From NCBI RefSeq assembly GCF_019977395.1, contig NZ_AP024660.1, forward strand, positions 2,976,001 through 3,040,000: a stretch of 64,000 nucleotides of DNA, in the 5' to 3' direction. The DNA is from Arthrobacter sp. NicSoilC5. GTDB lineage: Bacteria > Actinomycetota > Actinomycetes > Actinomycetales > Micrococcaceae. The notes beneath the pieces are model-generated. The model was not told the DNA's origin. It worked only from the letters and a program-made list of their open reading frames with translations, and ran no database searches. Position numbers and translations under genes: made by a program. Below, in pieces: positions 47,849-62,745 of this stretch (positions are counted from its first letter, which is position 1; each line of letters opens with the position of its first letter).

Positions 47849-48559
47849 CTAGGCCCTGATGGCTCCGAAACCGGCAATCAGGGCCTCGAGCCCAAGCTGG
47901 AAGGCGGTATCGGCCGGGCGACCACGGTCCTGCCCGGCCGGCCCGTCCTGCCCGTGGGCCGAACTCCGCACGGCCGCGGTGAAATGCGGCGTGGATTCCG
48001 CCATGGAGCCGGAATCGAAGATGTCCTCCGGTGCCGTGACGTCGTACGCAGAGCCGAAAATAAACGACTCCAGCGCCACGATGGCGGGAACAATGCGCTC
48101 CCGGGGGAACCCGGCGTCGAAAAACCCCTTGCTGACGGTTTCGTACATGGCAAGGGTCTGGGGGGCGTCCGTCACCGGCAGGACTGCGATAACGGGAATG
48201 AGCGGGGTATGTTCGGCGAAGACATCCCGGTAGCTCCACGCCCAGGTGCGGACGGCGTCTTCCCAGCTGCCGCCCCCGAAACCTGAGACGTCCACCAGTG
48301 ACATCAGGTGGTCCTCCACCAGGAGCAGTACGTCCTGTTTTGATTTCACATGGTTATAAAGGGCGGAAGGTGCCACGTCGAGCACCTTGGCCAGCGCCGC
48401 CATGGTCAGGCCGTCATAACCTTTCCGGCTCACCAGTTCCAGGGCGGCTGCCGTGATCCCCGCCTTGTCCAGCACTGCAGCCGACGGCCGGCCTGCCCGC
48501 CTCCTCTGTGCGCCGCCGTTGCTGGCGGAGCGCCCCTGTGCGGCTGATACTGCCGGCAT
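47849..48559 (-). CDS. TetR-family transcriptional regulator, putative polyamine regulator
   Basis: 236 residues from the ATG at 48559, supported by AAAGGG upstream. The HTH domain reads ITAAALELVSRKGYDGLTMAALAKVLDVAPSALYNHVKSK. The C-terminal domain (LPVTDAPQTLAMYETV, LESFIFGSAYD) resembles the TetR_C class common in actinobacteria. It diverges from putrescine oxidase, and the intergenic region contains a perfect 23-bp palindrome that reappears at the agmatine deiminase start. The regulator-operator link is inference. Confidence 0.88.
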   Translation of the reverse strand: MPAVSAAQGRSASNGGAQRRRAGRPSAAVLDKAGITAAALELVSRKGYDGLTMAALAKVLDVAPSALYNHVKSKQDVLLLVEDHLMSLVDVSGFGGGSWEDAVRTWAWSYRDVFAEHTPLIPVIAVLPVTDAPQTLAMYETVSKGFFDAGFPRERIVPAIVALESFIFGSAYDVTAPEDIFDSGSMAESTPHFTAAVRSSAHGQDGPAGQDRGRPADTAFQLGLEALIAGFGAIRA

Positions 48560-48626
48560 TGCTGCCCTTTCGTCGGTGTCCCCTGCATTATTCCATCCAG
48601 CACTTCCGCTCCCGGCAGGCACCGGC

Positions 48627-48660
48627 TATAGTTCTAGCTAAATGAATGGCATTCATTTAG
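48627..48660. promoter_or_regulatory. puo promoter and TetR-type operator 1
   Basis: TATAGT at 48627-48632 is a -10 candidate. Immediately downstream is a perfect palindrome, arms CTAAATGAATG (48638-48648) and CATTCATTTAG (48650-48660) around a single G. A bound repressor would block puo initiation and probably tetR as well. Confidence 0.8.
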
Positions 48661-48697
48661 TGGTCCCCGTCACCAAGGGGGCCGCAGAGAGGACATC

Positions 48698-50089
48698 ATG
48701 CTGAACCTGAACCGCGACGTCGTGGTCGTTGGAGCCGGGCCGTCCGGACTCACCGCCGCCCGTGAACTGAAGAAGGCCGGCCTCACCGTCGCCGTGCTTG
48801 AGGCCCGCGACCGGGTGGGCGGCCGCACCTGGACCGACACCGTTGATGGGGCCATGCTCGAAATCGGCGGCCAGTGGGTCTCGCCGGACCAGACCGCCCT
48901 CCTGGACCTGCTCCAGGAACTGGGCCTGGAGACCTACCCGCGCTACCGCGACGGGGAGTCCATCTACATCGGCGCCGACGGCTCACCCGTGCGCTACACC
49001 GGAGACACCTTTCCGGTGGACCCGGACACCGCCGTCGAAATGGACCGCCTGGTGGCGCTGCTGGACGGACTCGCCGCGGAGATTGGACCGACCGAACCCT
49101 GGGCGCACCCCAAAGCGCGTGAACTGGACACCATCTCCTTCCACCACTGGCTGCGGCAGAACTCGGCCAATGAGGAAGCCTGCAGGAACATCGGCCTGTT
49201 CATCGCCGGCGGCATGCTCACCAAGCCCGCGCACTCCTTCTCCGCCCTGCAGGCCGTCCTGATGGCCGCCTCGGCCGGCTCCTTCACCCACCTGACGGAC
49301 GAGGACTTCATCCTGGACCGCCGCGTGGTGGGTGGAATGCAGCAGGTCTCGCTGCTGCAGGCGCAGGAACTGGGGGAGGACGTGGTCCTTGGCTCCCCGG
49401 TCCGCACCATCAACTGGGAGCCGGATGCCGACGGCGGCCACCGCGTCACCGTTGAATCCGACCGGGCCACGGTGAACGCCCGGTTCGTCATCATGGCCGT
49501 GCCGCCCAACCTCTACTCCCGTGTCTCCTTCAGTCCGCCGCTGCCGCGCCGCCAGCATCAGATGCACCAGCACCAGTCCCTGGGCCTGGTCATCAAGGTG
49601 CACGCCGTCTACAGCACCCCGTTCTGGCGGGACAAGGGACTTTCCGGGACCTGTTTCGGGGCAGACGCCCTGGTCCAGGAGGTGTACGACAACACCAACC
49701 ATGGCGATGCCCGTGGCACGCTGGTGGGCTTCGTCTCCGATGAGAAGGCCGACGCCGTTTTCGAGTTGAGTGCCGAAGAGCGCAGGAAGGCGATCCTTGA
49801 CTCGATCGCCGGTTACCTGGGCGCGGAAGCCCTGGCGCCGGAGGTCTACTACGAGTCCGATTGGGGCTCTGAGGAGTGGACCCGCGGCGCCTATGCCTCC
49901 AGCTATGACCTGGGCGGACTCCACCGCTACGGCAAGGACCAGCACGCCCCCGTCGGCCCCATCTACTGGTCCTCATCCGATCTCGCCGCTGAAGGCTACC
50001 AGCATGTGGACGGCGCCATCCGCATGGGCCGCATCACCGCGGCGCGCATCGCGGAAGTTGCCAAGGTTCCCGTGGCATCCGGCTGGTAA
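48698..50089 (+). CDS. puo: Putrescine oxidase (flavin amine oxidase)
   Basis: 463 residues. FAD-dependent oxidation of putrescine to 4-aminobutanal, ammonia and hydrogen peroxide. The dinucleotide motif VVVGAGPSGLTAARELKKAG opens the protein, then GGRTWTDTVDGAMLEIGGQW, FIAGGMLTKPAHSFSALQAV, QHQMHQHQSLGLVIKVHAVY and ESDWGSEEWTRGAYASS. These blocks resemble, almost word for word, what I recall of Rhodococcus and Kocuria putrescine oxidases. GAGAGGA lies just before the ATG. It diverges from the TetR gene with an operator between. Confidence 0.92.
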   Translation: MLNLNRDVVVVGAGPSGLTAARELKKAGLTVAVLEARDRVGGRTWTDTVDGAMLEIGGQWVSPDQTALLDLLQELGLETYPRYRDGESIYIGADGSPVRYTGDTFPVDPDTAVEMDRLVALLDGLAAEIGPTEPWAHPKARELDTISFHHWLRQNSANEEACRNIGLFIAGGMLTKPAHSFSALQAVLMAASAGSFTHLTDEDFILDRRVVGGMQQVSLLQAQELGEDVVLGSPVRTINWEPDADGGHRVTVESDRATVNARFVIMAVPPNLYSRVSFSPPLPRRQHQMHQHQSLGLVIKVHAVYSTPFWRDKGLSGTCFGADALVQEVYDNTNHGDARGTLVGFVSDEKADAVFELSAEERRKAILDSIAGYLGAEALAPEVYYESDWGSEEWTRGAYASSYDLGGLHRYGKDQHAPVGPIYWSSSDLAAEGYQHVDGAIRMGRITAARIAEVAKVPVASGW

Positions 50090-50090
50090 A

Positions 50091-50102
50091 TAAGCATGCT
50101 TA
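50091..50102. promoter_or_regulatory. MarR-type operator candidate upstream of the stress-protein gene
   Basis: 12-bp perfect palindrome TAAGCATGCTTA, followed by CTAATAG. The identical 12-mer occurs at 56079-56090 just before a MarR gene. It starts directly after the puo stop and 55 bp before the next ATG. Confidence 0.7.
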
Positions 50103-50156
50103 CTAATAGGCTGGCGACGGGGAGCGTCCCCGACTTTTCGACGAACGAGGTGAGGC

Positions 50157-50639
50157 ATGACTGACGCCCAGAGCATCAGCAAGGTTACGGAGATCATCAA
50201 CGATTCCAAGATCGGAATGGTCACCACCATCAACGAAGCAGGCGCCCTCGTCAGCCGGCCGCTGGCGGTCCAGGAGGTCAAGGACGACGGCGACATGTGG
50301 TTCTTCACGGGCCTTGGCACCTCGCAGGTAGCGCACGTCCAGGCCGACCCGCGCGTCAACGTCGCCTTTGGCAAGAAGACCGAATGGGTGTCCGTTGCCG
50401 GAACCGCGGAAGTGGTCACGGACCGGGCCAAGATCCACGAGATGTGGAACCAGGTTGTTGAAGCATGGTTCCCGGACGGTCCGGACACGCCCGAGGTGTG
50501 CCTGCTGCGGGTCGATTCGGATTCCGCCGAGTACTGGACCAGCCCGGGCGGCACCGCTGCCACGGTGCTTCAGTGGGTGAAGTCAAAAGTCACCAACAGT
50601 CGGATGAGCGTCGGCGAAAGCGGCACTGTGGAGCTGTAG
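50157..50639 (+). CDS. Pyridoxamine 5'-phosphate oxidase-like general stress protein
   Basis: 160 residues with the split-barrel flavin-binding fold: KVTEIINDSKIGMVTTINEAGALVSRPLAVQEV and DMWFFTGLGTSQVAHVQADPRVNVAF. It matches the general stress protein 26 type, which binds FMN or FAD and whose role in stress is not well defined. Good GAGGTGAGG ribosome-binding site. The upstream palindrome suggests control by the MarR regulator at 56153. Confidence 0.88.
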   Translation: MTDAQSISKVTEIINDSKIGMVTTINEAGALVSRPLAVQEVKDDGDMWFFTGLGTSQVAHVQADPRVNVAFGKKTEWVSVAGTAEVVTDRAKIHEMWNQVVEAWFPDGPDTPEVCLLRVDSDSAEYWTSPGGTAATVLQWVKSKVTNSRMSVGESGTVEL

Positions 50640-50667
50640 CGCAGGCTGTTGACTGGGGGCGGGGCGG

Positions 50668-51276
50668 CTACTGCTGCTCCGCCCCTTTCAATGCCTCCAG
50701 GACTGCAGGCAGCAGCACGTCATTGCGGCCCCACACAGGATCCAGGATCTCCACATACCAGGAATCCGCGAGCAGGAGGGCCAGCGCATCGTTGGTCTCC
50801 CCGGCCCAGTCCTGGATCTGGGCCTCCTCCACGGGGTTCTCGCTGGAGCCGAGGACCGTGGTGATCTCTGCTCCGGCCAGGGTCACGGGAATGGCGGCGC
50901 TGCTTGCCTCGCCGGGAGCGTGGACTACCGTCACCAGCTCCGTGCGGGTGGAAAGTGCCAGCAGGCCCCGCGCAGTTTCGGCGCTGCAGAAGCCGGTGAC
51001 GTACTGCCGCTGCGCCGCCCCATCAGCCAGGATGCCCGGCTGGGACTCCTTCGTGAACAGCCCGCTGCGGTTCAACTCTGCCAACGGCGCGGCCAGTGGC
51101 TCCGTCTCGGCGTCGAACGCCGCAGCGAAGTGGCCCGGCTGGTACGAACTCCCGCCTTCCAGCCACCGTGCCGTCAGCTCACCGGCGGCCTCCAGCGTGG
51201 TGGCTTGCCGCCAGACCCCGCGGTCCTCCAGCAGCCGGCCGTACTCGTCGTGGACAGGCAGTTCCTCAGGCTTCAT
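50668..51276 (-). CDS. Hypothetical protein
   Basis: 202 residues, soluble, acidic, no signal peptide or membrane helix. The middle reads FCSAETARGLLALSTRTELVTVV and the end is WYVEILDPVWGRNDVLLPAVLEAL. A weak memory links it to small Streptomyces-type DUF families, but I cannot assign one with confidence. A credible gene by composition and frame; converges with the preceding gene. Confidence 0.7.
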   Translation of the reverse strand: MKPEELPVHDEYGRLLEDRGVWRQATTLEAAGELTARWLEGGSSYQPGHFAAAFDAETEPLAAPLAELNRSGLFTKESQPGILADGAAQRQYVTGFCSAETARGLLALSTRTELVTVVHAPGEASSAAIPVTLAGAEITTVLGSSENPVEEAQIQDWAGETNDALALLLADSWYVEILDPVWGRNDVLLPAVLEALKGAEQQ

Positions 51277-51336
51277 CTTGGGATGCTATCGCCGGGCCTC
51301 CGCGCCGATCCAACCTCTTCGACACAGCAGTTAACT

Positions 51337-51963
51337 TCAGCCGGCCTGCTTCATTGGCATGGCCGCCGGAATTCCCGCCGCCCGTTCCGCTGCTGCGAGC
51401 GATGCAGCCAGGCTTCCGACGGCGTCCGGGTAGCCCTTGTGCGTGGCGGTCCGCAGTTGGTCCGCGGTCCGCATGGCCTTGATCAGTGCCGACGTTTCCG
51501 GCAGCCGCACGTCGGTCAGTGCCGGGTAGTCGATGCTGCAGCCGGGATCCAGTTCGTAGCGCCGCCAGCGGACTATGAGCTCATCATGCTGTATCCGGGC
51601 GGCCTGATGCGCGGAGAGCTGCTCCCGGTATTCACGCCGGGCGGCGCGCCACGCCAGGAACTTTGGGCTGCCCCGGTAGGCCGCAAGGCCCGAGGCCGCA
51701 GCTGCCCCGGCCAGCACCAGCCCCGCCCAGGGAGAAACCAGGGCCGGGATCAGAAGGGCCGGAAGCGCCACGCAGGAACCGAGGAACAGATCCCAAAACA
51801 GCTGGTCAGGAGCCTCCGGTGCGCGTCCTGCGGGTGCCAGGGACCGTCGTCGTACAACGAAAACCGTGGCGGCGACGCTGGCAACCAGCACGGCACCGCA
51901 CAGCAGGACCACCCCCGCACCTTGAAGCAGTCCCTGGGTCAAGGACTCCGCCACGACTGACAT
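51337..51963 (-). CDS. Hypothetical membrane protein
   Basis: 208 residues from the ATG at 51963, supported by GGGAGGTG upstream. N-terminal hydrophobic segment (LLQGAGVVLLCGAVLVASVAATVFVV) and a second pair around residues 65-95 (ALPALLIPALVSPWAGLVLAG), then a charged cytoplasmic part with LDPGCSIDYPALTDVRLPET and a helical C-terminus. The C-terminal half resembles cytoplasmic parts of uncharacterised actinobacterial membrane proteins. Function unknown. Confidence 0.75.
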   Translation of the reverse strand: MSVVAESLTQGLLQGAGVVLLCGAVLVASVAATVFVVRRRSLAPAGRAPEAPDQLFWDLFLGSCVALPALLIPALVSPWAGLVLAGAAAASGLAAYRGSPKFLAWRAARREYREQLSAHQAARIQHDELIVRWRRYELDPGCSIDYPALTDVRLPETSALIKAMRTADQLRTATHKGYPDAVGSLAASLAAAERAAGIPAAMPMKQAG

Positions 51964-52125
51964 CCTGCACCTCCCGCGCCCGTCATTCCCCACAAAGACT
52001 TGGCCCCGGCCGGAAAGCCCGGGCTGGTCCTTCCATTGGACCGTCTTCCAGGCACAGCGTCAATGGCTGCAAAATGCGGAGGCAGGCACTCCAAAGGGCG
52101 CCATGATGGGCGGTAGCGTGGGACC

Positions 52126-52506
52126 ATGCGACTCAAAATGTGCAGCATCCACGTCCAGGACCCCGCGGCCGCCCACGCCTTCTACACCGGCACGCTCGGC
52201 TTTGACACCCTCATGGCCATGCCGGAGTACAACCTGTACATCATCAAGGATCCGGGGGCGGCCGACAGTTCGGTGGGGCTGCTCCTGGAGCCCAGCGACA
52301 ACCCGATCGGCGCCAGCTACATGAACGCCGTGCGTGAGGCCGGCCTCCCCGCCATCGTTTTCGGGGTACCCGATGTCCAGGCAGAATATGACCGCCTGTC
52401 GGCCGCCGGGGTCAGCTTCAAGACTCCGCCCACCACGGACTCATTTGGGACCAGCGCCGTGTTCGACGACGGCTGCGGCAACTACATCCAGATCCACCAG
52501 GACTGA
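52126..52506 (+). CDS. VOC-family (glyoxalase/bleomycin resistance fold) protein
   Basis: 126 residues with two beta-alpha-beta-beta-beta modules. Opens with RLKMCSIHVQDPAAAHAFYTGTLGFDTL and ends VFDDGCGNYIQIHQD, with the Glu/His positions partly replaced by Gln and His. Such proteins range from dioxygenases to isomerases to drug-binding proteins; the specific role is unknown. Confidence 0.87.
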   Translation: MRLKMCSIHVQDPAAAHAFYTGTLGFDTLMAMPEYNLYIIKDPGAADSSVGLLLEPSDNPIGASYMNAVREAGLPAIVFGVPDVQAEYDRLSAAGVSFKTPPTTDSFGTSAVFDDGCGNYIQIHQD

Positions 52507-52521
52507 CGGACCGGGATGCAA

Positions 52522-52578
52522 CAGAAGCTTGTCCGCGCATCCGGACGCTGAGGCTCCGGACGGGCGAACAAGCTTCTG
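52522..52578. terminator. Long inverted repeat between convergent genes
   Basis: 11-bp perfect arms CAGAAGCTTGT and ACAAGCTTCTG, 35 bases apart with an inner TCCGGACGCTGAGGCTCCGGA hairpin. It lies between the VOC gene and DUF5997. There is no T run; possibly a bidirectional terminator. Confidence 0.5.
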
Positions 52579-52596
52579 AAAGGGCGGCGGTGCAGG

Positions 52597-52998
52597 CTAA
52601 GCCTGGGCGCGGTCCTTCTTTGCCTGCTTCTTCGCGGCCTCGTCCTTGACCCGCTGGGCCTCGGCACGGACTGCAGCGTGCGTGGCGCGTTCGGTGACGA
52701 GCCACTGCGGGGGAGCCTGCAGCAGCGCGGTGATCTCCGCCGTCGTGAGCGCTTCTTCCACGCCGCCGCGTGCCAGGCCGCTGATGGACACGTTCAGCTT
52801 CTGGGCCACCACGGGGCGGGGGTGCGGCCCATTGCGGCGGAGTTCGGCAAGCCATTCCGGCGGGTTGGCCTGGAGTTCGGCGAACTCCTCACGGGTAATG
52901 GTTGAATCCTGGAACTCCTGCGGGGTGGCCGGCAGGTAGATGCCAAGTTTCTTGGCAACGGTGGCCGGCTTCATGGACTGGGAGTTTGCAGAGGTCAT
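52597..52998 (-). CDS. DUF5997 family protein
   Basis: 133 residues, cytoplasmic. The N-terminal part reads MKPATVAKKLGIYLPATPQEF and ITREEFAELQANPPEWLAEL, the middle RPVVAQKLNVSISGLARGG, and the tail is Lys/Ala-rich helical. Members of this family are commonly encoded head-to-head with a LysR-type substrate-binding protein, exactly as here. Function unknown. Confidence 0.82.
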   Translation of the reverse strand: MTSANSQSMKPATVAKKLGIYLPATPQEFQDSTITREEFAELQANPPEWLAELRRNGPHPRPVVAQKLNVSISGLARGGVEEALTTAEITALLQAPPQWLVTERATHAAVRAEAQRVKDEAAKKQAKKDRAQA

Positions 52999-53035
52999 GC
53001 TTCAAGGGTATCCGGGCGGCGGGTACTGTGAAGAC

Positions 53036-53782
53036 GTGCCCGCCGACAATGCCCCCATGCCTGATGCCCAGCCCGCCCCCGACGAGGCGGCGCCGCGGGT
53101 GCTGCGCGTCGCGTATGTGGCAGGGGTGACGCCGGGAAAGTGGATCCGCCGCTGGGAAGAGCGGATGCCCCATATTCCCCTTGAAGCATTCATGATCGAC
53201 GACGGCGTGCAGCGCCAGGTGCTGGATGGCGGCCGGGCTGACATGGCCTTCGTCCGCCTTCCGATTGACCGGGACGGCCTCAGCGTCATCCCGCTCTACG
53301 AGGAACAACCCGTGGTGGTTGCCCCCAAGGGCCACGAGATCTCAGTGTTCGAGGAAGTGGCCCTTGCCGACCTTGCCCAGGAGTCCTTCCTCGATGCTGC
53401 TGCCTTAGGCGGCCCGGAGACGGCGCTCCAGGTGGTGGCCTCCGGGGCCGGGCTGCTGGTCCTCCCAATGTCAGTGGCGCGCCACTTCAACGTCAAAGAC
53501 ACCGTGGCGCGCAGGCTCACCGGGGCGGAGGAGAGCGAAATCGCCCTGGCCTGGCCCGCGGAGGCCACGGACGACGTGCTGGAGGAATTCATTGGCGTGG
53601 TGCGCGGCCGCACCGCCCAGAGCTCCCGCCAGCCCTCCGCCCAGCCGCAAAAGGTGAAGAAGGAACCCAAACCGGACCGCCGCGGCACCGGAACCAAAAA
53701 AGCGCCCAAGGTGGCCCAGCGCTATGCCCCCAACCCTGACAAGGGCCGCGGCAAGGGATCGCGGAAGAAGGGCAAGCGCTAG
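53036..53782 (+). CDS. LysR-type substrate-binding domain protein lacking the HTH
   Basis: 248 residues from the GTG at 53036. It contains only the LysR effector domain (RVAYVAGVTPGKWIRRWEER to DVLEEFIGVV), with no N-terminal DNA-binding helix. The C-terminal 50 residues are strongly basic (KVKKEPKPDRRGTGTKKAPK and GKGSRKKGKR). It is 37 bp from the divergent DUF5997 gene, so very short or no leaders are expected. It may have become a small-molecule sensor bound to nucleic acid via the basic tail. Confidence 0.82.
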   Translation: MPADNAPMPDAQPAPDEAAPRVLRVAYVAGVTPGKWIRRWEERMPHIPLEAFMIDDGVQRQVLDGGRADMAFVRLPIDRDGLSVIPLYEEQPVVVAPKGHEISVFEEVALADLAQESFLDAAALGGPETALQVVASGAGLLVLPMSVARHFNVKDTVARRLTGAEESEIALAWPAEATDDVLEEFIGVVRGRTAQSSRQPSAQPQKVKKEPKPDRRGTGTKKAPKVAQRYAPNPDKGRGKGSRKKGKR

Positions 53783-53826
53783 CCCCCATGAGCCCACCAG
53801 GCACCTGGTTGTTGACCGGATAACAG

Positions 53827-53859
53827 AAAGCCGGCCCCGCATGATGCGGAGCCGGCTTT
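53827..53859. terminator. Inverted repeat, probable bidirectional terminator
   Basis: Near-perfect 16-bp arms AAAGCCGGCCCCGCAT and ATGCGGAGCCGGCTTT (one mismatch) between convergent genes. Confidence 0.7.
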
Positions 53860-53886
53860 GCTGCAGTCCGTCGCTGCCCGCGCGGA

Positions 53887-54549
53887 CTAGGTGTTTTGGA
53901 TGGTGTCTTTGGCGTCGGTTGCGCGGTCTTTGACGTCGGTGGCTGCGTATTGGCCTTCGGTTTTGACGTTTTGGGCGGCGTCGGTGGCGGTGGCCTTGAC
54001 GTTTTCCATGGCTTCCTGGGCGGGTTCCTTGAGGTCCTGGGCCATGGTTTTGGCGGCGTCGGTGACCTGGGTTGCCAGGGGCTGGGCTGCGGTTTTGAGT
54101 TGGTCCGCGGCTTCGCGTTCTTTGTCGCTGGCCGGGATCAGGGAGGAGATCAGCATGCCGGCGCCGAAGGCGATGAGGCCGGCGGCCAGGGGGTTGCCGG
54201 CGGTTTTGGCTTTGACCTGGTCCGGGGCGTGGGAGACGGCCTGGCCGGCGTCGGAGAGTTTCGCGGAGACGGTGTCTGTGGCCTGGTGCAGGTTGTCGCC
54301 TGCGGTGTGCATGGCGTTGGTGGTGTGCCCGGCTCCGGTGGCGGTGGTGTCGTGGACTTTGGTGCCGGCGGTGTCTGCTGCTCCCATGATTTTCTCCTTC
54401 ACCCCGGTCACGGCGTCGCGGACCTTGTCGGTTTGGCGGTGGACGATGTTGGACGGGGTGACTTTGTCGGCCACGGCGTCCACGTTGGTGCCCAGGCGTG
54501 CCCGGGTGGCTTCTATGTCTGCGCGGATGACGTCAGGGTTGTCGCTCAT
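53887..54549 (-). CDS. DUF3618 domain protein
   Basis: 220 residues. The N-terminal DUF3618 motif is MSDNPDVIRADIEATRARLGTNVDAVADKV. The rest is Ala/Thr/Lys-rich with LEA-like helices, and a short hydrophobic stretch AAGLIAFGAGMLISSLIP near residue 125 that probably inserts in the membrane. DUF3618 proteins go with phage-holin-type and LEA-like neighbours in actinobacteria. Its start overlaps the holin-family stop by 4 bp. Base composition is strikingly uniform, with repeated GTC/GGT triplets on the plus strand. Confidence 0.88.
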   Translation of the reverse strand: MSDNPDVIRADIEATRARLGTNVDAVADKVTPSNIVHRQTDKVRDAVTGVKEKIMGAADTAGTKVHDTTATGAGHTTNAMHTAGDNLHQATDTVSAKLSDAGQAVSHAPDQVKAKTAGNPLAAGLIAFGAGMLISSLIPASDKEREAADQLKTAAQPLATQVTDAAKTMAQDLKEPAQEAMENVKATATDAAQNVKTEGQYAATDVKDRATDAKDTIQNT

Positions 54550-54980
54550 CGGTTTACCTCACCTGGTTTTAGGGTTGGGGGAATTTCTGAGAGGGTTTCG
54601 CCGGTTTGGGGCAGGCCTTTGATCTGTTTGAGTTCCTTGCGGCCGGTGGAGGCCAGGACGGCGGCGATGATGGCCCAGATGACGGCGACGATCAGTGCGG
54701 CCCAGCCCAGGGCCATGATGGCGCCCAGGGCCCACATCAGGGCCAGGGAGAGGAAGAGCAGGACGAAGTGTCCGCCGATCCCGGCGCCGGCGAGCATGCC
54801 GGCGCCTTTGCCTGCGCGGGAGGTGGATTGTTTGAGTTCGGCTTTGGCCAGTTCCACTTCCTGGCGCATCAGGGTGGACAGGTCACGGGTCACGTCCCCG
54901 AGCAGGTCACCGAGTGAGGCGTTGTCCGCTTTCACGTGCGCCGCGCTGGGCGGCGGCTCCGGAATCTGGCTACTCATCAC
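54546..54980 (-). CDS. Phage holin-like superfamily III membrane protein (DUF1469 type)
   Basis: 144 residues: an amphipathic N-terminus (SLGDLLGDVTRDLSTLMRQEVELAKAEL) followed by two transmembrane helices (AGIGGHFVLLFLSLALMWALG and MALGWAALIVAVIWAIIAAVL). This is the Pfam holin_E family that, despite the name, is common outside phages in stress-type operons with DUF3618. Overlaps both neighbours by 4 bp. Confidence 0.88.
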   Translation of the reverse strand: MMSSQIPEPPPSAAHVKADNASLGDLLGDVTRDLSTLMRQEVELAKAELKQSTSRAGKGAGMLAGAGIGGHFVLLFLSLALMWALGAIMALGWAALIVAVIWAIIAAVLASTGRKELKQIKGLPQTGETLSEIPPTLKPGEVNR

Positions 54981-55876
54981 AGACCACCCGTGCCGTGCCG
55001 GCCGGTGCCCGGGGTACCTTCAGTGCCGAACGTCCCGTCGCCGGAGTACACGCCGTTTTCGGCGCGGTAGGGGTCGTCCTCGAAGCGAAGCGGAGTCTCT
55101 TCGGGTGTTCCCGAAGGCAGGGTGCTGGTGGACACCGGGGTGGCACTGCCCACTACCGGCTCAGCAAAGAGGTCGTCGGTGCCTGCGGCATAAACGGTCT
55201 CCTGGCGAAGCGGCGCTGCCGGGGCTGGCTGCGCGGCGCGGTGCTGGCCTGAACCCTGGGCCGTATTGGAACCTGCAGCCTGTCCCGATGTTTCGGGTGC
55301 ACCTGCGGTGAGTCCGCGGGTGAGGCGTCCGGCGAGGACGCCGGCGCCGGCGGCGAGGAGCAGGAAGGTTCCGGGGCGGTTGCGGGCGAACCGCTGGACC
55401 TCGTTCAGGAGGTCGCCCGGCTCCCGGTTTTCCAGCCAGGTGGCCATGGAGGAGGTGCGTTCTGCGGCCTGGCGGACCAGGTCGCCGGCCATGCCCTGCT
55501 GGTCCGGGGCGTTGGCCATGCTGTGCAGCTGGGTGGAGATGTTGCGGATGCCTTCCGCGGCCTTCTGCTGCTGGGTGCCCGCCTGGCTGGTGAGGCCGGA
55601 CTTTGCCTGGTGCAGCAGGTCCTGCGCATTGGCCTTCGCATCATGCGCCACGTTCGCGGCTTCTTCCTTCGCCGTCTGAGCCACATTCTGTGCGGCGGAT
55701 GCGGCCTCGCCGGCAACGTTGGATGCCTGCTCCCTGGCTGCCTGGGTCTTGGAGGTGTCACCCAAAGTGGTGGGGTAGGAGGCCTGCCGGGGAGCTGCCT
55801 CCGTTGCGCCGTACGGATCGGCGATGGCCGGATCGTCAGCGGTGTGCGGGGTCTGGGGCCATTGGTTCTCTGTCAT
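54977..55876 (-). CDS. LEA-like membrane-associated protein
   Basis: 299 residues. Residues 40-130 are an Ala/Gln/Lys-rich amphipathic helix region (AREQASNVAGEAASAAQNVA, VAHDAKANAQDLLHQAKSG), then a segment like those in DUF3618-linked proteins (MATWLENREPGDLLNEVQRF), a hydrophobic helix (GTFLLLAAGAGVLAGRL) and a disordered acidic tail. First gene of a three-gene overlapping operon, with MarR-type repeats upstream. Probably protects or remodels the envelope under stress; the function is not established. Confidence 0.78.
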   Translation of the reverse strand: MTENQWPQTPHTADDPAIADPYGATEAAPRQASYPTTLGDTSKTQAAREQASNVAGEAASAAQNVAQTAKEEAANVAHDAKANAQDLLHQAKSGLTSQAGTQQQKAAEGIRNISTQLHSMANAPDQQGMAGDLVRQAAERTSSMATWLENREPGDLLNEVQRFARNRPGTFLLLAAGAGVLAGRLTRGLTAGAPETSGQAAGSNTAQGSGQHRAAQPAPAAPLRQETVYAAGTDDLFAEPVVGSATPVSTSTLPSGTPEETPLRFEDDPYRAENGVYSGDGTFGTEGTPGTGRHGTGGL

Positions 55877-55933
55877 CTTCGCTCTCTTTCAGAAAGGGTT
55901 AGCTGGCGATCAAGAACCAGCAATGCTGGCGAG

Positions 55934-56090
55934 TTAGTAAGCAAGGTTACTAATTAGATACTAAGCACACTTCCCATTTGGATTGCAAGGGGCAGTGCTG
56001 CAGTTTCGAAGTCCCGGGGCCGCCCGGCGATGCGGTTAAGTTGCCGCTGGATAGTAAGCCTACTTGCGAATATGTTGCTAAGCATGCTTA
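55934..56090. promoter_or_regulatory. Cluster of MarR-type operators between divergent genes
   Basis: Three related elements: perfect 7-bp arms TTAGTAA and TTACTAA spaced by GCAAGG at 55934-55953; a partial copy ATAGTAAGCCTACTTGC at 56051-56067; and the perfect palindrome TAAGCATGCTTA at 56079-56090. A half-copy TACTAAGCACACTT lies at 55959-55972. They sit between the envelope operon (leftward from 55876) and marR (rightward from 56153). Confidence 0.78.
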
Positions 56091-56152
56091 TTGTAGTGGT
56101 GTAGCGACGCAGGGTGACCAGCACTTCGCCACCTACAGGAAGGCCGCGGCCG

Positions 56153-56686
56153 ATGACCAGCAATCTCGATCCCGACGCCCGGAGCAGCTACCGCCTGATC
56201 ACTTTGGCGGCCCGGCTCATCCAGCGGCGCCAGGACGATGCACTGGCCCCCCTTGGCCTCACCCGTGCCGCAGTTATTGCACTGGAAGGCCTGACGGGGG
56301 GCCCACTGAACCAGGAACAGCTTGCCGATGCGATCAGGGTCCAGAGCCAAACACTGGGCCGGGTCCTGACCCGGCTTGAGGGCACAGGACTCATCACCAG
56401 GACCCGGCACGCCTCGGACCGCCGCCAGCTGAAAGTGGAGCTGACGGACGCCGGCGTTGCCGCCGTCGAAGCGGCGCGCCAAGCGGAGATCAACGCCTAT
56501 CCGGACGATCCGGACATCGGGTGGAAGGAACTCCGGGAGGAACTCACCAAGTTTGTCCGTGCCGTCCCACTCAACCGCGAAAGCGGCGTGGTTCCGTTTG
56601 CTCCGCCGGAACACCGGGGCGGACACCGTCCCCAGACCGGGCGGGCAGCCGGAATCCGTGGCTGGGAACAGCCACACCAGAACTGA
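56153..56686 (+). CDS. MarR-family transcriptional regulator
   Basis: 177 residues from the ATG at 56153, supported by AGGAAGG upstream. Winged helix: LTRAAVIALEGLTGGPLNQEQLADAIRVQSQTLGRVLTRLEGTGLI with the wing TRHASDRRQLKVELTDAG. The C-terminal tail of about 40 residues (AP/PEHRGGHRPQ) extends beyond the usual MarR length. It is expected to bind the palindromes upstream of itself and of the divergent operon, and likely the one at 50091. Ligand unknown. Confidence 0.9.
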   Translation: MTSNLDPDARSSYRLITLAARLIQRRQDDALAPLGLTRAAVIALEGLTGGPLNQEQLADAIRVQSQTLGRVLTRLEGTGLITRTRHASDRRQLKVELTDAGVAAVEAARQAEINAYPDDPDIGWKELREELTKFVRAVPLNRESGVVPFAPPEHRGGHRPQTGRAAGIRGWEQPHQN

Positions 56687-56752
56687 CAGGGCTGCGGGCG
56701 TCTTGCCATGCCCCGTGCGTGGGGTTGGGCAGCACCGGACAGGCAGCAGGGC

Positions 56753-57889
56753 TTACGACGACGGGACGTCCGGTCCCGAGGACCAGCGCAGCAGTGCCGC
56801 GATATGCACGCCCTTGGGCAGGACCGGTCCCGGAACCAGGAGAACGCGGGCGTCGGTGAGGGCGGCTGCGCGAAGCAGCGCCGCCGGGGCCGGCACTTCT
56901 CCCAGGATGCGGGCAGCCAGGGCTTCTTCCCGGGCTGTGGCAACCCACGGTTCGGCGTCCAGGGCCAGCAGGGTCCGTCCGGACAGGGCGGCATCATCAA
57001 AGATCAGGACGTCCGCCTGTGCCTGCTGGAGTGCATGCACCACCGCTCCGATGCCATGGGCTGCCTCGGGATTGGCCTGGCCCTCCTGGACGGCCAGCCT
57101 GTCCATGACAGCCTGCTGCTCCTCCGCCCACAGCTCAGCAACGTGCTGGTTGACGTGGTCCTCCAGGTTGGCGCTGCCAGCCCCGGCGGTGTGGGTGTGG
57201 GACTCCACCTCCGACACCAAAGCCCTGCCGGCTTCGGAGAGGTTGTCCTTGACCAGGCCCCTGGCACGGATGTCGCCGGCCAGCACGATGAGCCGGGCGC
57301 CGCTGGCGTTGGCCACCCTGTCGATTTCGCCTGCCACTTCGTCCGCGTTACGGCGCCAGACGTCTTCGGTGTGGTGCTGGAACCGCAATTCAGACCAACC
57401 CCCGCCATGGAACTTGTGCACGTGTTCGGATTCTCCCTCCACGTCCTGTACGAAGGCGGGAATCCTGGCTCCGGCCCGGTACAGCCGGATTTCACCGTGC
57501 TCCCGGCTTACTTCCGCCACAACGTAGGCAAGGTCTTCGGGCCGGTGCTTGACCAGCGGCAGCAGGTCCGGGACGGGCTCCACTGCGAGCCGCTCCGGCA
57601 TGACGGGATCGCCGGGAAGCACCTCATTGACTACGGCCTTCCCTGCGTGGACCAGGACGAAGCGTGCCACGGGGGAGGGGATCCCGGCGGCCGGCTGGAG
57701 GGCCTGCTCCATTGCCTCGACATCGGCGGAGGTTGCCCCCTGCGCTTCAAGCCGGGCGCGGGTATTTCCGGCCCTGACATCCCCGGCTTCAAGGGTGTCC
57801 ACTGTTCCGGTTCCCGCGTCCACGTAGGCCGTGCACCACGGGCCGGGAGTGCGGTAGAGATCGGCATATTTCTGCAGGTTCGTGGTCAT
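56753..57889 (-). CDS. Vms1/eRF1-like release-factor-family protein (baeRF2, Rv2629 type)
   Basis: 378 residues. The order is N-terminal domain, central eRF1-like domain and C-terminal alpha/beta domain, matching the bacterial archaeo-eukaryotic release factor family. Typical text: FVQDVEGESEHVHKFHGGGWSELRFQHHTEDVWRRNADEVAGEI, ARLIVLAGDIRARGLVKDNL and ADVLIFDDAAL. M. tuberculosis Rv2629 is the usual reference; the group is proposed to act on stalled ribosomes or in ribosome hibernation. No hibernation factor neighbours it here. The GGQ-like region reads HKFHGGGW. Confidence 0.85.
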   Translation of the reverse strand: MTTNLQKYADLYRTPGPWCTAYVDAGTGTVDTLEAGDVRAGNTRARLEAQGATSADVEAMEQALQPAAGIPSPVARFVLVHAGKAVVNEVLPGDPVMPERLAVEPVPDLLPLVKHRPEDLAYVVAEVSREHGEIRLYRAGARIPAFVQDVEGESEHVHKFHGGGWSELRFQHHTEDVWRRNADEVAGEIDRVANASGARLIVLAGDIRARGLVKDNLSEAGRALVSEVESHTHTAGAGSANLEDHVNQHVAELWAEEQQAVMDRLAVQEGQANPEAAHGIGAVVHALQQAQADVLIFDDAALSGRTLLALDAEPWVATAREEALAARILGEVPAPAALLRAAALTDARVLLVPGPVLPKGVHIAALLRWSSGPDVPSS

Positions 57890-58047
57890 TTTTCCTCCTC
57901 CCCGATGCGGGGGCCCGAGGTGGTTTTGCCGCGTTCCGCCATGACGATCTCCTTCGCGCGTGGCGTACTGCCACAGGCTTACTGGTTCGTCATTTCACCG
58001 TAGCAGCGGTGATCCGGGCGCTGAAGGGCCTTCCGGCCCCTTGCCGG

Positions 58048-58383
58048 TCAGCCGCGGCAGGCGTCCTGCAGGGCCCGGACTGAGTCTGCCGGCACCTGGT
58101 CCCCGGCCTCCGCAATCCGGCCCAGAGGCGTCGTGATCTCTGCAGGAACCCCTGCCGTCCGCGCGGCCGACACCAAGCCCGCCAAAGCCTGGCGGTCTTC
58201 GGCGCTGACCAGGCCGTCCTGGACCACTGCGCAGATTTGCCGGTTGACTTCCTGCGCGGCGGCCGAGGCCGCCCTGGAAGCGGCGTCGCTTGCCGCGGTG
58301 CCTGCGGCTTCCCCCACGGCGCCGCACCCCGTCAGCAGCAGGGCGGCGGCAAGGGCAGTGGCGGCGACGGGGCGAAGAGTCAT
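58048..58383 (-). CDS. Putative lipoprotein
   Basis: 111 residues from the ATG at 58383. Signal peptide with lipobox LLLTGC (Cys about residue 20), then a short Ala-rich helical segment (AAGTAASDAASRAASAAAQE) and a small C-terminal part (ICAVVQDGLVSAEDRQAL...VRALQDACRG) with two cysteines that may pair. Starts 22 bp after the alditol oxidase stop, so possibly cotranscribed. Function unknown. Confidence 0.78.
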   Translation of the reverse strand: MTLRPVAATALAAALLLTGCGAVGEAAGTAASDAASRAASAAAQEVNRQICAVVQDGLVSAEDRQALAGLVSAARTAGVPAEITTPLGRIAEAGDQVPADSVRALQDACRG

Positions 58384-58405
58384 GCCTCCAGCGTACCGGC
58401 GGCCT

Positions 58406-59677
58406 CTACCGGCGTGCCGGTACCCCGAGGATGCTGTCCAGCAGGGCGTTGCGGAACTTGCCCTCGGGGTCATGGCCGGCCGCAAAGGCCCGGAAATCGG
58501 CGAAGCGCGGGTACAGCGCCTCCCAGTCATAGCCCTCCGGCGTGAACAGCTTGCCCCAGTGCGGGCGGGCACCGAAGGGCCGCAGGGCTTCCTCAAGGAC
58601 CGGGAGGAAGCCTTCCACCTCAGGCTGCAGCGGTTTCCACGTGAAGTGCAGCGCAGCGCTTTGCTGCCGGTAGAACGGGCTGAGCCAGAATTCGTCGGCG
58701 GCGCCGGTGCGGATTTCCGAGACGAACAGCAGCGGGGCAAGGTCTTCGGCCAGCGCGCGGACTGCCTGGAGGGCAGCGGGGGCGTGCTCCAGGGGAAGGA
58801 TGAACTCGCTCTGGAGTTCGTCTCCGTTGCTTGGGGTGAACTCGTGCCGGAAGTGCGGGAGCCGGTCCAGCCACAGCCCGGGTTCGTCCAACTGCGCCGT
58901 GCAGTTCTCCGCTGACATGTCCGGCAGGGGGTGCCGGGGATGCAGCGCGGCGGTTGCCCCGAAGAGGTTTGGAAGCGGCTCCTCCCCGTCGAGCGCTTTG
59001 AGCCATACCTGGTTGATGCTGCTGCCCGCGTAGTCCGTAAAGAGGCTCACGCTGTAGGCGCTGGACACGATTCCGGCGAAATCTCCCAGGGCGTTGTCCC
59101 ACGGCAGGTCCTCCAGAACCCGCTGGCGCATCCTGAAGCTGGGCCGCACCGCCAGTTCCAGCCCGGTGACAATGCCCAGGGCCCCGATGCCCACCACGCT
59201 TGCCAGGAACTCGTCGCCGTCCTCCCGGGTCAGCGTGACCTGCTCTCCGGAGGCCCGGACCAGGTCGATGGATTCCACGGCACCGGCGAGGGCCGGGTTG
59301 TTCACACCGGACCCGTGCGTGCCGGTCTGCACCGCGCCTGCCACCGAGATGTGCGGCAGCGAGGCAAGGTTGTGGATGGCGACGCCGGCATCCTCAAGCG
59401 TCCGGCAGAGCGCCCCGTAACTCACGCCGCCGCTGACGCGCACTGTTCCGCGGCCGGAATCCAGCTCCACCTGCTGCGGCAGCGCATCGAGCAGCACGTG
59501 CACGCCGTCGGTGTCTCCCACCCGGTTGAACGAGTGCCGGGACCCCAGGGCCTTGATCCGCGGCGAAGCGGCCACGATGGATGCCAGTTCCGCTACTGAT
59601 TCCGGCCGACTGACATCCGCGGAGGAGTATTCGAGGTTTCCTGCCCAGTTCTTCATCGAGTGGCTTTCGCTTGGCAT
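58406..59677 (-). CDS. aldO: Alditol oxidase (vanillyl-alcohol-oxidase family flavoenzyme)
   Basis: 423 residues from the ATG at 59677, with GGGAGGAAA upstream; an open frame extending further overlaps the amidase and is not real. FAD domain: NWAGNLEYSS, IKALGSRHSFNRVGDTDG, SLPHISVAGAVQTGTHGSG with the His of the covalent flavin link. The C-terminal domain resembles D-arabinono-lactone oxidase type (FTPSNGDELQSEFILPLEHA, FGARPHWGKLFTPEGYDW). Closely similar to Streptomyces AldO, which oxidises xylitol and sorbitol at C1. Preceded by a LacI-type operator. Confidence 0.92.
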   Translation of the reverse strand: MPSESHSMKNWAGNLEYSSADVSRPESVAELASIVAASPRIKALGSRHSFNRVGDTDGVHVLLDALPQQVELDSGRGTVRVSGGVSYGALCRTLEDAGVAIHNLASLPHISVAGAVQTGTHGSGVNNPALAGAVESIDLVRASGEQVTLTREDGDEFLASVVGIGALGIVTGLELAVRPSFRMRQRVLEDLPWDNALGDFAGIVSSAYSVSLFTDYAGSSINQVWLKALDGEEPLPNLFGATAALHPRHPLPDMSAENCTAQLDEPGLWLDRLPHFRHEFTPSNGDELQSEFILPLEHAPAALQAVRALAEDLAPLLFVSEIRTGAADEFWLSPFYRQQSAALHFTWKPLQPEVEGFLPVLEEALRPFGARPHWGKLFTPEGYDWEALYPRFADFRAFAAGHDPEGKFRNALLDSILGVPARR

Positions 59678-59691
59678 CGGTTTCCTCCCAC

Positions 59692-59705
59692 TGTCAGCGC
59701 TAACA
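59692..59705. promoter_or_regulatory. LacI-type operator upstream of aldO
   Basis: TGTCAGCGCTAACA, a 14-bp palindrome with one mismatched pair and central CG, fits LacI-family sites of the TGTTAGCGCTAACA type. It lies 15 bp upstream of the aldO start. No LacI gene is in the window. Confidence 0.75.
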
Positions 59706-59822
59706 ATCGAGCCTGTCAAGGCGCTTCCGCTGTGTGGGCGGGGATGTCCCGTGGCCGTGATCCGCCTGCCCGCGGGCAGTCCGGGGCAGTCCCGCAGGCA
59801 GGCGGACACCAACGCCGTCCAG

Positions 59823-61610
59823 TCAGGAGCTTCTTTCGTTGCGGGGTGTGGTGGTGCGGGGTGTGGTGGTGCGGGGCGGGGGCATGCGGCGGCTCCCGGT
59901 TGCTTCGATGGCCGCGGCCAGCCGGAGCAGGCCGGTATCGCTGTAGGCTTTGCCGGCGATGGTGAGGCCCACCGGCATGGCGATGTCCGCCGCGATGCCC
60001 ATGGGAACCGTGACCGTGGGGATGCCAAGGTGCCGGGGGACCAGGTTCCCGTTGGCCACCCATACGCCGTTGCGCCAGGCGGCGTCCGCCGAGGCCGGGT
60101 TGGTGTCCGCGTCCGCCGGGGCAACATCGGCCGCCGCCGGGAACACCACGGCGTCCAGGCCCAGCCGGTCCATCCATTCCTCCAGGTCCACCCGGCGGGT
60201 TTCCTCCAGCCCTGCCAGGCCCGCGGGCAGGTGCGGAATGTCGGCCAGGACGGGCACGCCGTGCCCGCGGATCCAGCCGGGATAGTCGCTGATGTCGTCA
60301 TCGAAGCCGTCGTAGCGGTCCGGAAGCGCCCCGTCCGGGGCCGGGAAGATGGCGGAACCGTCGACGTCGGCAAGGCGGTTCAGCTGCGGGTCCCCGTTGG
60401 CCTCCAGGAAGTCATTCCACGCCCAGGCCGACAGGTCCACGATTTCCCGCCGCAGGTATTCCGGGGACACCAGCCCCCGGGTGGCGATGGTGGGCGCGCC
60501 GGGCCGGTCGCCTTCGTAGTTGGAGACCACGGGGAAGTCCACCTCCACCACGTCGGCGCCTGCGGCTTCGAGGTCGCGGCGGGCCGCGTTCCACAGCTCC
60601 ATGATGGATGCGCGGGTTTCGATCCGCTGCCCTGTGGACCCGCCGATGCCTGGCGCTTCGGCAGTGCCGGCCTCCGGGTCCGCGTTGATGTACATCCGCG
60701 GCACGCCCAGCCGCTTCCCGGCGAGTACGCCTGCCGCCGCGGCGGCGTCCGGAACGGCGAGGTCAAGGTACGACGCCGGCCGGACGGTGGATGCCTTGGG
60801 CACCGGGATCCAGGGCTGGACACGCCAGAAGTCGCCGCGTGGCTCGGCGTCGTCCGCCACCACCACGTCCAGGACCTCCAGCAGGTCCGTCATAGTGCGG
60901 GTGTGCGGAACCACGACATCCATGGTGGGCACCAGGGGCCAGTTCCCACGCACGGAGATGACGCCGCGGGAGGGTGTATAGGCGCACAGGGCGTTGTTCG
61001 ATGCCGGGGCCCGGCCTGAGGACCACGTTTCCTCCGCCAGTCCGAAGGCTGCGAAGCTCGCCGCAGTGGCCGTGCCGGACCCGTTGGATGACCCGGAGGC
61101 AAAGGCGGCCGGGAGGAAATCGGCGTTGTAAGGGCTCTCCGCCCGCCCATATACTCCGCGTTGCATACCTCCGTTGGCCATGGGCGGCATGTTGGTCAGC
61201 CCGATCAGGACGGCGCCCCCGGCCCGCAGCCGTTCGATGGTAAAGGCGTCGCGCTGTGCCACCAGGTCCTTGAACGCGGGTGAACCGGCAGCCACGGTAA
61301 GGCCTTTGACCTGGTAGCTGTCCTTTGCGGTGTAGGGGACGCCGTCCAGGGGGCCCAGCGTGAAACCGGCGGCACGGCGGCGGTCCGACTCCTGCGCCTC
61401 GGCGATGGCCTCGGGGTTCATCACGACGAGCGAGTTCAAACATATTCCTGATGAGTCATATTTCTCGACGCGCGCCAAATAGAGTCGGACCAGGTCTTCG
61501 GAAGTGACCACCCCCGCGTCAAGGGCTGCCCGGAGCCGGCCAATGCCGGCCTCCACCACGTCGAAAGTCGCCCCAGCGGCCAACTGTTGAGTGGCCTGTG
61601 CCTGCTTCAT
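59823..61610 (-). CDS. Amidase-signature family hydrolase, possible N-carbamoylputrescine hydrolase
   Basis: 595 residues. Amidase-signature elements: catalytic Lys in PYTAKDSYQVKG, Ser-rich motif ASGSSNGSGTATAASF and EETWSSGRAPASNNAL supplying the cis-Ser and nucleophile. The C-terminal tail has short TTTPR repeats. The start overlaps the aguA stop by 4 bp, so it is translationally coupled to agmatine deiminase. The pathway needs removal of the carbamoyl group next, a step usually done by nitrilase-type AguB, which is absent here. Substrate assignment is inference only. Confidence 0.85.
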   Translation of the reverse strand: MKQAQATQQLAAGATFDVVEAGIGRLRAALDAGVVTSEDLVRLYLARVEKYDSSGICLNSLVVMNPEAIAEAQESDRRRAAGFTLGPLDGVPYTAKDSYQVKGLTVAAGSPAFKDLVAQRDAFTIERLRAGGAVLIGLTNMPPMANGGMQRGVYGRAESPYNADFLPAAFASGSSNGSGTATAASFAAFGLAEETWSSGRAPASNNALCAYTPSRGVISVRGNWPLVPTMDVVVPHTRTMTDLLEVLDVVVADDAEPRGDFWRVQPWIPVPKASTVRPASYLDLAVPDAAAAAGVLAGKRLGVPRMYINADPEAGTAEAPGIGGSTGQRIETRASIMELWNAARRDLEAAGADVVEVDFPVVSNYEGDRPGAPTIATRGLVSPEYLRREIVDLSAWAWNDFLEANGDPQLNRLADVDGSAIFPAPDGALPDRYDGFDDDISDYPGWIRGHGVPVLADIPHLPAGLAGLEETRRVDLEEWMDRLGLDAVVFPAAADVAPADADTNPASADAAWRNGVWVANGNLVPRHLGIPTVTVPMGIAADIAMPVGLTIAGKAYSDTGLLRLAAAIEATGSRRMPPPRTTTPRTTTPRNERSS

Positions 61611-62710
61611 GCTGCATCGCCTTCGCGCCGGGCCGGCTGCTGCTGGGTGATGCAGTGGATGCCGCCGCCGAAGGCGAAGATGTCCCGGGCATCCACCAGT
61701 TCCACCGTGCGTCCGGGGTAGGCGCGCTCCAGGATGCCGGCGGCGATGGTGTCATTCGGATCGTTGAACCCGCAGAGCACCACCACGTTGTTGGCCACGT
61801 AGTGGTTGATGTAGGACCAGTCCACCCAGCCCTCTTCATCCCTGAGCGTGGTGGGGGCTGGAACGTCGATGATGCGCAGCGGCCGGCCCTGGGCGTCCAA
61901 CTGCCCGGCAAGGACTGCCTTCAGCTGCAGATAGACGGCGTGGTCCGGGTGGGCGGGATCATCCTGGCGGTGGAGCAGGATGGTTCCCGGGCCGGCAAAG
62001 GCGGCCACGATGTCCACATGGCCGCGGGTGCCGAACTCGTCATAGTCCCGGGTGAGCCCGCGGGGAAGCCAGATGGTCTTGGTGGTGCCCAGGGCTGCAT
62101 GGATTTCCGCCTCGACGGACTCTTTGGTGGCGCCGGGGTTTCGGCCGGGATCGAGCTGCACCGTTTCGGTCAGCAGCACCGTGCCTTCACCGTCCACATG
62201 GAATCCGCCGCCTTCGTTCACCAGGGAGCTTCGCCTGACTGGCACATTGGTGCCGGCTGCCACGCTCCGGGCTACGTCCTGGTCCTTGGCCCAGGCAGCC
62301 CAGTCCTGTGCGCCCCAGCCATTGAAGATCCAGTCAACTGCGGCGAGTGAACCGTCCGCCGCATGAACGAACGTGGGGCCGCTGTCCCGCAGCCAGGCGT
62401 CGTCCAGCGGAACGGCCAGAACGTCGATGCCCTGGCCGAGCCATTCCCGCGCGGCGGTGGCATCGCGCGGATCGGCGACGACCGTAACGGGCTCGTACCG
62501 TGCGATGGTCCGGGCCACCTTGGTCCAGGCGGCCCGCGCACGGTCCAGGGTGGAGCTTCCCACCGGCCCGAAGGTCTCGTTTGGCGGCGGAAAGGCCATC
62601 CAGGTCCGCTGGTGGGCGTCCCACTCGGCGGGCATGCGGGACGCGGTACTGACGGCCGCGTGGCCAGGGGCGGCGCTGCCACCGACTGCTGTCGAATAAA
62701 TGAATGCCAT
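61607..62710 (-). CDS. aguA: Agmatine deiminase
   Basis: 367 residues; agmatine + water -> N-carbamoylputrescine + ammonia. Porphyromonas-type peptidylarginine-deiminase fold: MPAEWDAHQRTWMAFPPPNETF, DAWLRDSGPTFV, NEGGGFHVDGEGTVLLTE, RGHVDIVAAFAGPG and the catalytic Cys in FGGGIHCITQQQP. The ATG at 62710 has no ribosome-binding site and lies inside a palindrome; an internal ATG at 62635 would give a 342-residue protein starting at MPAEW. A well-placed promoter suggests a leaderless mRNA starting at 62710. Confidence 0.93.
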   Translation of the reverse strand: MAFIYSTAVGGSAAPGHAAVSTASRMPAEWDAHQRTWMAFPPPNETFGPVGSSTLDRARAAWTKVARTIARYEPVTVVADPRDATAAREWLGQGIDVLAVPLDDAWLRDSGPTFVHAADGSLAAVDWIFNGWGAQDWAAWAKDQDVARSVAAGTNVPVRRSSLVNEGGGFHVDGEGTVLLTETVQLDPGRNPGATKESVEAEIHAALGTTKTIWLPRGLTRDYDEFGTRGHVDIVAAFAGPGTILLHRQDDPAHPDHAVYLQLKAVLAGQLDAQGRPLRIIDVPAPTTLRDEEGWVDWSYINHYVANNVVVLCGFNDPNDTIAAGILERAYPGRTVELVDARDIFAFGGGIHCITQQQPARREGDAA

Positions 62711-62745
62711 TCATTTATTATGGGGACGGCGCCGTGCGCACGCAA
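62695..62745 (-). promoter_or_regulatory. aguA promoter and TetR-type operator 2
   Basis: Leftward -35 TTGCGT (62740-62745), 17-base spacer, -10 CATAAT (62717-62722), then six bases to the ATG. A perfect palindrome, arms AATAAATGAATG and CATTCATTTATT around one C, covers 62695-62719, thus the -10, the start point and the first codons. Its inner 21 bases match operator 1 at 48638 except for the central base. Confidence 0.82.

Follow-up and report, generated by a model that had tools for sequence, protein, structure and literature searches.

Two near-identical palindromes lie about 14 kb apart in a 64,000-nucleotide stretch of the Arthrobacter sp. NicSoilC5 genome (contig NZ_AP024660.1, positions 2,976,001 to 3,040,000 of the forward strand; hereafter the window). 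One is located in the gap between a TetR-type regulator gene, tetR, and the divergent putrescine oxidase gene puo, and the other over the start of aguA, a gene of the agmatine deiminase family. Do the palindromes mark the genes of one regulatory system, and does the regulator next to puo read both? Based on the analysis of this genome and its relatives, we consider it very probable that the uptake and catabolism of agmatine and putrescine are governed by a repressor of the TetR type, with putrescine as its likely inducer.

The operator core, AAATGAATG-N-CATTCATTT, occurs exactly at positions 48640-48658 and 62698-62716, with the same letters throughout the 9-bp arms. A sequence-only reading of the window had described both palindromes with perfect arms of 11-12 bp, and both were confirmed (Table 1). 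No further match with up to three mismatches was found in the window, and 100 dinucleotide-preserving shuffles of the window gave no match at this threshold. The source genome, a single contig of 4,691,366 bases (4.69 Mb), was searched as a whole and yielded one more match within three mismatches, ATATGAATGGCGTTCATTT at G000:C1:3822549-3822567, which has two mismatches; the reversed pattern gave none. The numbers expected by chance in the whole genome, calculated from the base composition with independent bases and a window GC content of 0.649, are 1.4e-6 exact sites, 0.0036 sites with up to two mismatches and 0.08 with up to three. The relaxed motif AAATGAA-N5-TTCATTT, searched with two mismatches, recovered only the same three sites. 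Because its reversed control also produced three matches, which are chance matches, weaker sites in this genome are indistinguishable from background; the relaxed search added none, its control was equally rich, and we claim no additional weak operators.

The third operator is located approximately 39 bp upstream of a 518-amino-acid open reading frame for an APC permease (AA_permease_2), about 784 kb from the aguA operator and outside the window. The split polyamine regulon of puo and aguA that had been proposed from the window is supported by the sites but was incomplete, since its third member, the permease, lies beyond the window. We infer that the permease imports amines. Provided that it carries them, all three operators of the genome front polyamine genes, in agreement with the proposal that the motif is confined to such genes. 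A ferritin/Dps-like gene is divergent from the permease gene, 165 bp away, and shares the permease gap in several relatives. It was left out as a regulon member, as the site persists at loci in which no dps homologue was found (L043, L057, L063, L067). On the dps side of this gap, a number of relatives (L038, L045, L049, L061 and others) have a second, weaker palindrome, which lies at a near-constant distance of 53-54 bp from the operator of the permease gene and is perhaps a tandem operator. The corresponding sequence is degenerate in the NicSoilC5 genome and was not counted as a part of its system.

The enzymes encoded next to the two window operators were identified by homology. Puo is closely similar to two solved putrescine oxidases (Table 1), and its best match not carrying this name scored 256.7 bits. 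The best solved relative of AguA is the agmatine deiminase PDB 3H7C (230 bits), aligned over residues 25-361 including the C-terminal IHCITQQQPA, the cysteine of which we take to be the catalytic residue. The AguA score of 282.3 is below the cut-off of 381.8 for the NCBIfam agmatine-deiminase equivalog TIGR03380, and AguA2 of a relative is likewise below it (287.0). Agmatine is thus only the probable substrate of AguA. The sequence-only reading had drawn a chain from agmatine via N-carbamoylputrescine and putrescine to 4-aminobutanal; the AguA and Puo ends of the chain are retained on homology, but the hydrolase of the middle step had been overlooked, and is probably encoded by aguY, which overlaps aguA.

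The AguY-type protein scored 1037 bits against NCBIfam NF005127 (cut-off 575) and 862 bits against PDB 6TE4 (Tse8). According to Li et al. (2025, PMC12283126), AguY is a non-homologous N-carbamoylputrescine amidohydrolase encoded beside aguA in Proteobacteria and Actinomycetota, hydrolysis of N-carbamoylputrescine has been shown for two other AguY proteins, and Tse8 is placed inside the AguY family, having evolved from AguY. The AguY-type enzyme is thus already published, and the replacement of AguB is not new. By homology, we assign the window amidase as an AguY-type enzyme for the N-carbamoylputrescine step. The best AguB match in the NicSoilC5 genome was 35% identical (E 4.1e-18), and no close AguB was found. 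Of 101 genomes of the genus, 48 encode an AguY-type protein (E <= 1e-60; in fragments in G351), 33 encode AguB (E <= 1e-40) and one (G010) encodes both, as compared to about 16 expected, taking both draws of 101 as the same genomes and ignoring shared ancestry. An AguA homologue was found directly beside the AguY-type gene in 14 of 15 fetched loci (L198-L204, L206-L213), the exception being L208, the locus of a second, 58% identical AguY-type paralogue in G357, where no AguA homologue adjoins it. In G010, aguA2 is present in two overlapping pieces (L205:6648-7663), and its AguB pathway is perhaps decaying. A lactone-oxidase-like gene downstream of aguY in the window (Table 1) is also found close to aguY in several relatives.

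The motif, with up to two mismatches, is present in 36 of 37 genomes of the genus, including the NicSoilC5 genome itself, and in none of the 22 genomes that represent different families of the same order; the reversed control gave no match in either set. All sites within two mismatches were classified in the window and in 80 loci (L034-L093 and L198-L217, two of which are 100-base placeholders), drawn from part of the listed motif places with loci around aguY genes added. This gave 69 sites, of which 68 front puo/tetR, agu genes or transporters, so that the confinement to polyamine genes holds in the relatives too: puo/tetR (31 sites), aguB-aguA2-permease (13, including two second copies in the same promoter, L049 and L215), permease (9), aguA (8), MFS-amidohydrolase-aguA-aguY (3), aguA2-permease (1) and other APC permeases (3), which presumably resemble PuuP. 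When over-long query starts were not trimmed, seven of the 69 sites had no assigned gene and five only dps. Named tetR loci were collected by means of the TetR alignment. The best 80 of 331 come from Arthrobacter, Pseudarthrobacter and Paenarthrobacter, with one record labelled Micrococcaceae; every one of them has a divergent puo with the operator in the gap, and no further match to the relaxed motif within two mismatches was found in these 80 loci.

Such palindromes might be kept for another cause, for example as DNA-bending or transcript elements, or be there by chance, and the aguA copy does overlap the predicted coding sequence, which is a constraint in its own right. However, the site counts exclude chance, and none of the 14 arm bases AAATGAA/TTCATTT (seven in each arm) varies among the 80 named tetR-puo gaps, in contrast to the centre and much of the flanks. 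The sites furthermore track the TetR gene and the predicted promoters, not the coding frame. We therefore regard another cause as extremely improbable. The operator is conserved and real, and the set of genes that it defines probably forms a regulon.

At the level of the family, a TetR homologue (E <= 1e-25) was identified in 178 of 245 genomes, representing 26 of 32 genera, and the relaxed operator (up to one mismatch) in 167 genomes and 27 genera; the control also gave matches in a few genomes. Taking both draws of 245 as the same genomes, which carry the same handles, both elements are present in 161 genomes, TetR only in 17, the operator only in 6, and neither in 61. Six of the 17 TetR-only genomes have only weak TetR matches (E 5e-33 to 5e-31), and without all eight weak matches the numbers are 159, 11, 8 and 67, respectively. 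We also analyzed 40 loci of the family that contain TetR homologues (L128-L167); they were picked for genus spread and include some paralogues. A divergent puo is present in 33 of them, and the relaxed motif is found in the gap in all 33 (23 with no mismatch, 5 with one, 4 with two and 1 with three); in another two, puo and tetR are otherwise arranged (L128, L156). In the class-wide draw, 32 of 296 genomes have a TetR homologue (E <= 1e-22), and two of 27 new loci, from two more families, keep the divergent tetR-puo pair together with the motif, which has no mismatch in one of them and a single mismatch in the other (L298, L299).

In nine of the 40 family loci, agu genes are found no more than about 12 kb away from tetR and puo, as aguB-aguA2 (L128, L132, L143, L156) or as aguA with or without aguY (L130, L142, L147, L151, L155). 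Because of these loci, the 14-kb split in the window is probably secondary. Together with the distant permease, it plausibly represents the scattered form of one cluster, tied together by the operator.

The predicted promoters suggest how the operators could act. The best pair of -35 and -10 hexamers includes a 17-bp spacing at all three sites of the genome, alone at aguA and tied with other spacings at puo and the permease gene, and the operator core begins 0 bp (aguA), 0 bp (permease) and 7 bp (puo) past the predicted -10. Of the 80 named relatives, 79 have a TA[TC][AT][GA]T hexamer that begins 12-14 bp ahead of the puo operator core. The ATG of the longest aguA reading frame falls within operator 2, near the expected transcription start, and the aguA transcript is possibly leaderless. 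Since the predicted -10 is at or just before the operator, a repressor is placed on the likely transcription start. In the proposed mechanism, a TetR dimer would bind TAAATGAA-N5-TTCATTTA as a repressor and would occupy three operators, one between tetR and puo, one at the promoter of aguA-aguY and one at that of the APC permease gene. Bound at or just past the -10, it would block RNA polymerase at the start of transcription. A rising substrate, most likely putrescine, would release the repressor and co-induce the importer, AguA, AguY and Puo, and the induced enzymes would feed 4-aminobutanal into the gamma-aminobutyrate (GABA) route.

Table 1. Positions of operators, genes and predicted promoter elements in the window.
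Feature	Position	Strand	Remarks
Operator 1	48638-48660	none	tetR-puo gap; CTAAATGAATG-G-CATTCATTTAG; palindrome arms of 11 bp
Operator 2	62695-62719	none	over predicted aguA promoter and start; AATAAATGAATG-C-CATTCATTTATT; arms of 12 bp
tetR, proposed repressor (working label PuoR)	47849-48622	-	TetR_N and TetR_C_1 (Pfam); start codon uncertain
puo, putrescine oxidase	48698-50089	+	881.7 bits to PDB 3RHA and 721.7 bits to PDB 2YG3, both named putrescine oxidase
puo -35-like hexamer, TTCCGC	48604-48609	+	predicted; weak; 17 bp before -10, score tied with 16- and 18-bp spacings
puo -10-like hexamer, TATAGT	48627-48632	+	predicted by scoring script
aguA, agmatine deiminase family	61607-62710	-	PF04371, E 7.9e-105
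aguA -35-like hexamer, TTGCGT	62740-62745	-	predicted
aguA -10-like hexamer, CATAAT	62717-62722	-	predicted; directly abuts the operator core
aguY, homologue of amidase-signature N-carbamoylputrescine amidohydrolase	59823-61610	-	4-bp overlap with aguA
Flavin adenine dinucleotide (FAD)-linked lactone-oxidase-like gene	58406-59533	-	Pfam ALO; 3' of aguY, gap of about 290 bp; shared transcript uncertain

The regulator encoded beside puo is a suitable candidate for this role. Both of its domains are above the gathering score (PF00440, 41.1 bits; PF02909, 38.1 bits), and a SALYNH motif is invariant among 16 aligned homologues. It also fits a trait of the TetR family, namely a palindromic operator that overlaps the predicted target promoters, with one copy beside the regulator's own gene. 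The closest solved structure by sequence is PDB 2G7G (Rha04620; E 2.1e-31), deposited as a putative transcriptional regulator and presumably a Rhodococcus-type protein. In a search of the NicSoilC5 genome, this TetR was the sole close member, the next four matches being partial and 25-39% identical. The proposal that the adjacent TetR binds both window operators is supported by this result and by the family-wide co-occurrence with the operator, but not as a general rule, as a second type of TetR gene, here called TetR2, precedes the agu-side operator in three relatives. We infer that one TetR reads both operators in this genome, and limit this statement to the genome at hand.

Several observations weigh against a single regulator that controls the whole set of genes. 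The 17 family genomes with TetR but no operator within one mismatch, and the six with the reverse pattern, are exceptions to the association, and kinship is ignored in the Fisher p-values. No puo is found near the TetR homologue in five of the 40 family loci (L133, L141, L148, L149, L164). One genome of the same genus, G032, has AguB but no site within two mismatches. The site in G002 (L041:8081-8099, two mismatches) lies between convergent genes and is the sole one of the 69 without a plausible target. The aguA2-aguY pair lacks an operator (up to two mismatches to the relaxed motif) in eleven loci of the same genus, and operator control of aguY is therefore not general. Finally, in G021, G025 and G010 (L071, L073, L204) the agu-side operator is immediately preceded by a TetR2 gene of the same orientation, and L147 carries a TetR2 adjoining TetR. 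The agu-side class of operators may therefore belong to another protein.

This last point gives rise to an alternative in which the TetR governs only itself and puo, and a different TetR with the same palindrome preference reads the operators of aguA-aguY and the permease. In addition to the placement of TetR2 in the three relatives, such a division of labor is in line with loci from three genomes of another actinobacterial family (L314, L322, L324), in which aguB and a TetR2-type gene are divergently oriented and the gap holds a related palindrome, AAACGAA-N5-TTCGTTT. These loci suggest that a broader subfamily of TetR proteins is dedicated to agmatine genes. However, when the NicSoilC5 genome was searched with TetR2, the first match was the puo-side TetR itself (31%, E 5.5e-19), followed by one partial match of 32%, and operators 1 and 2 are identical in their 9-bp arms. 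For this genome we thus consider a separate regulator improbable, and retain the TetR beside puo as the putative regulator of all three operators.

Which compound would release it? The tetR-puo pair and its operator are kept in three genomes (G018, G024, G031) that have no match to AguY or AguB, agmatinase not having been searched for there, and putrescine is therefore a more economical guess for the inducer than agmatine. Alternatively, release could depend on agmatine or N-carbamoylputrescine without any role for putrescine, which is compatible with the proposed binding. The agmatine steps belong to the proposed regulon, and PMC4287709 describes AguR of Pseudomonas aeruginosa, a TetR-family repressor that binds between the -35 and -10 of aguBA and is released by agmatine. 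With tetR, puo and operator persisting in the three genomes, we consider this alternative rather unlikely, although by no means negligible, and putrescine the preferred inducer. The present system is also set apart from AguR by its layout. AguR controls the aguBA operon, whereas the regulator here is beside puo, about 13 kb from aguA, and is proposed to act at three places; its operator is at or after the predicted -10 rather than between -35 and -10.

The different genes behind the operator raise the further idea that the operator outlives the enzymes. It fronts aguB-aguA2-permease or aguA-aguY depending on the species, so that the middle step would have been taken over by a non-homologous enzyme while its control stayed as it was, with a TetR paralogue sharing or competing for sites in some genomes, and with putrescine, the meeting point of the branches, as the signal. 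We regard the chances of this extended scenario as evenly balanced.

Neighboring genes for a Zn-dehydrogenase, a PNPOx-like protein and a talarate dehydratase were considered as regulon members and rejected, having no tie to the motif. Another perfect palindrome, CACATACTTGTA-T-TACAAGTATGTG, is located at 46805-46829, in the gap that separates the talarate/galactarate dehydratase gene (45624-46751) from the divergent Zn-dehydrogenase gene. Together with an open reading frame at 44881-45600, assigned as a GntR-like regulator by reading of the sequence, it is noted as a candidate operator of a sugar-acid regulon.

Catabolic regulons controlled by TetR repressors are a well-known kind of system. 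No description of this operator, or of a TetR regulator of puo, was found in the open PubMed Central literature, which largely leaves out subscription papers. Among the closest published systems is the AguA-AguY pathway, in which the gene directly after aguA encodes a large amidase-signature protein that stands in for AguB. The main text of PMC12283126 has no mention of TetR, Arthrobacter or putrescine oxidase, and a single figure legend names a LysR-type regulator; the operator and the links to puo and the permease are features of the present system not seen there. Puo closely matches the solved enzymes of the putrescine oxidase pathway of Arthrobacter and Rhodococcus, for which the sections available of PMC3534580 give no regulator or operator. 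The same source reports growth of Arthrobacter sp. Rue61a on both putrescine and agmatine, the latter serving as carbon and nitrogen source, and an agmatine route that was scored as incomplete despite this growth. AguY is a candidate explanation for the growth of Rue61a on agmatine.

The AguY assignment gains independent comparative support from these results, and the family NF005127 (PRK06565), presently named just "amidase", could receive a functional name. The analysis furthermore proposes, for the Arthrobacter group and the family to which it belongs, a precisely defined regulator and operator of amine catabolism, and the operator predicts which transporters may carry agmatine or putrescine. 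Taken over the relatives, the results suggest a regulon that apparently persisted through the replacement of one of its enzymes.

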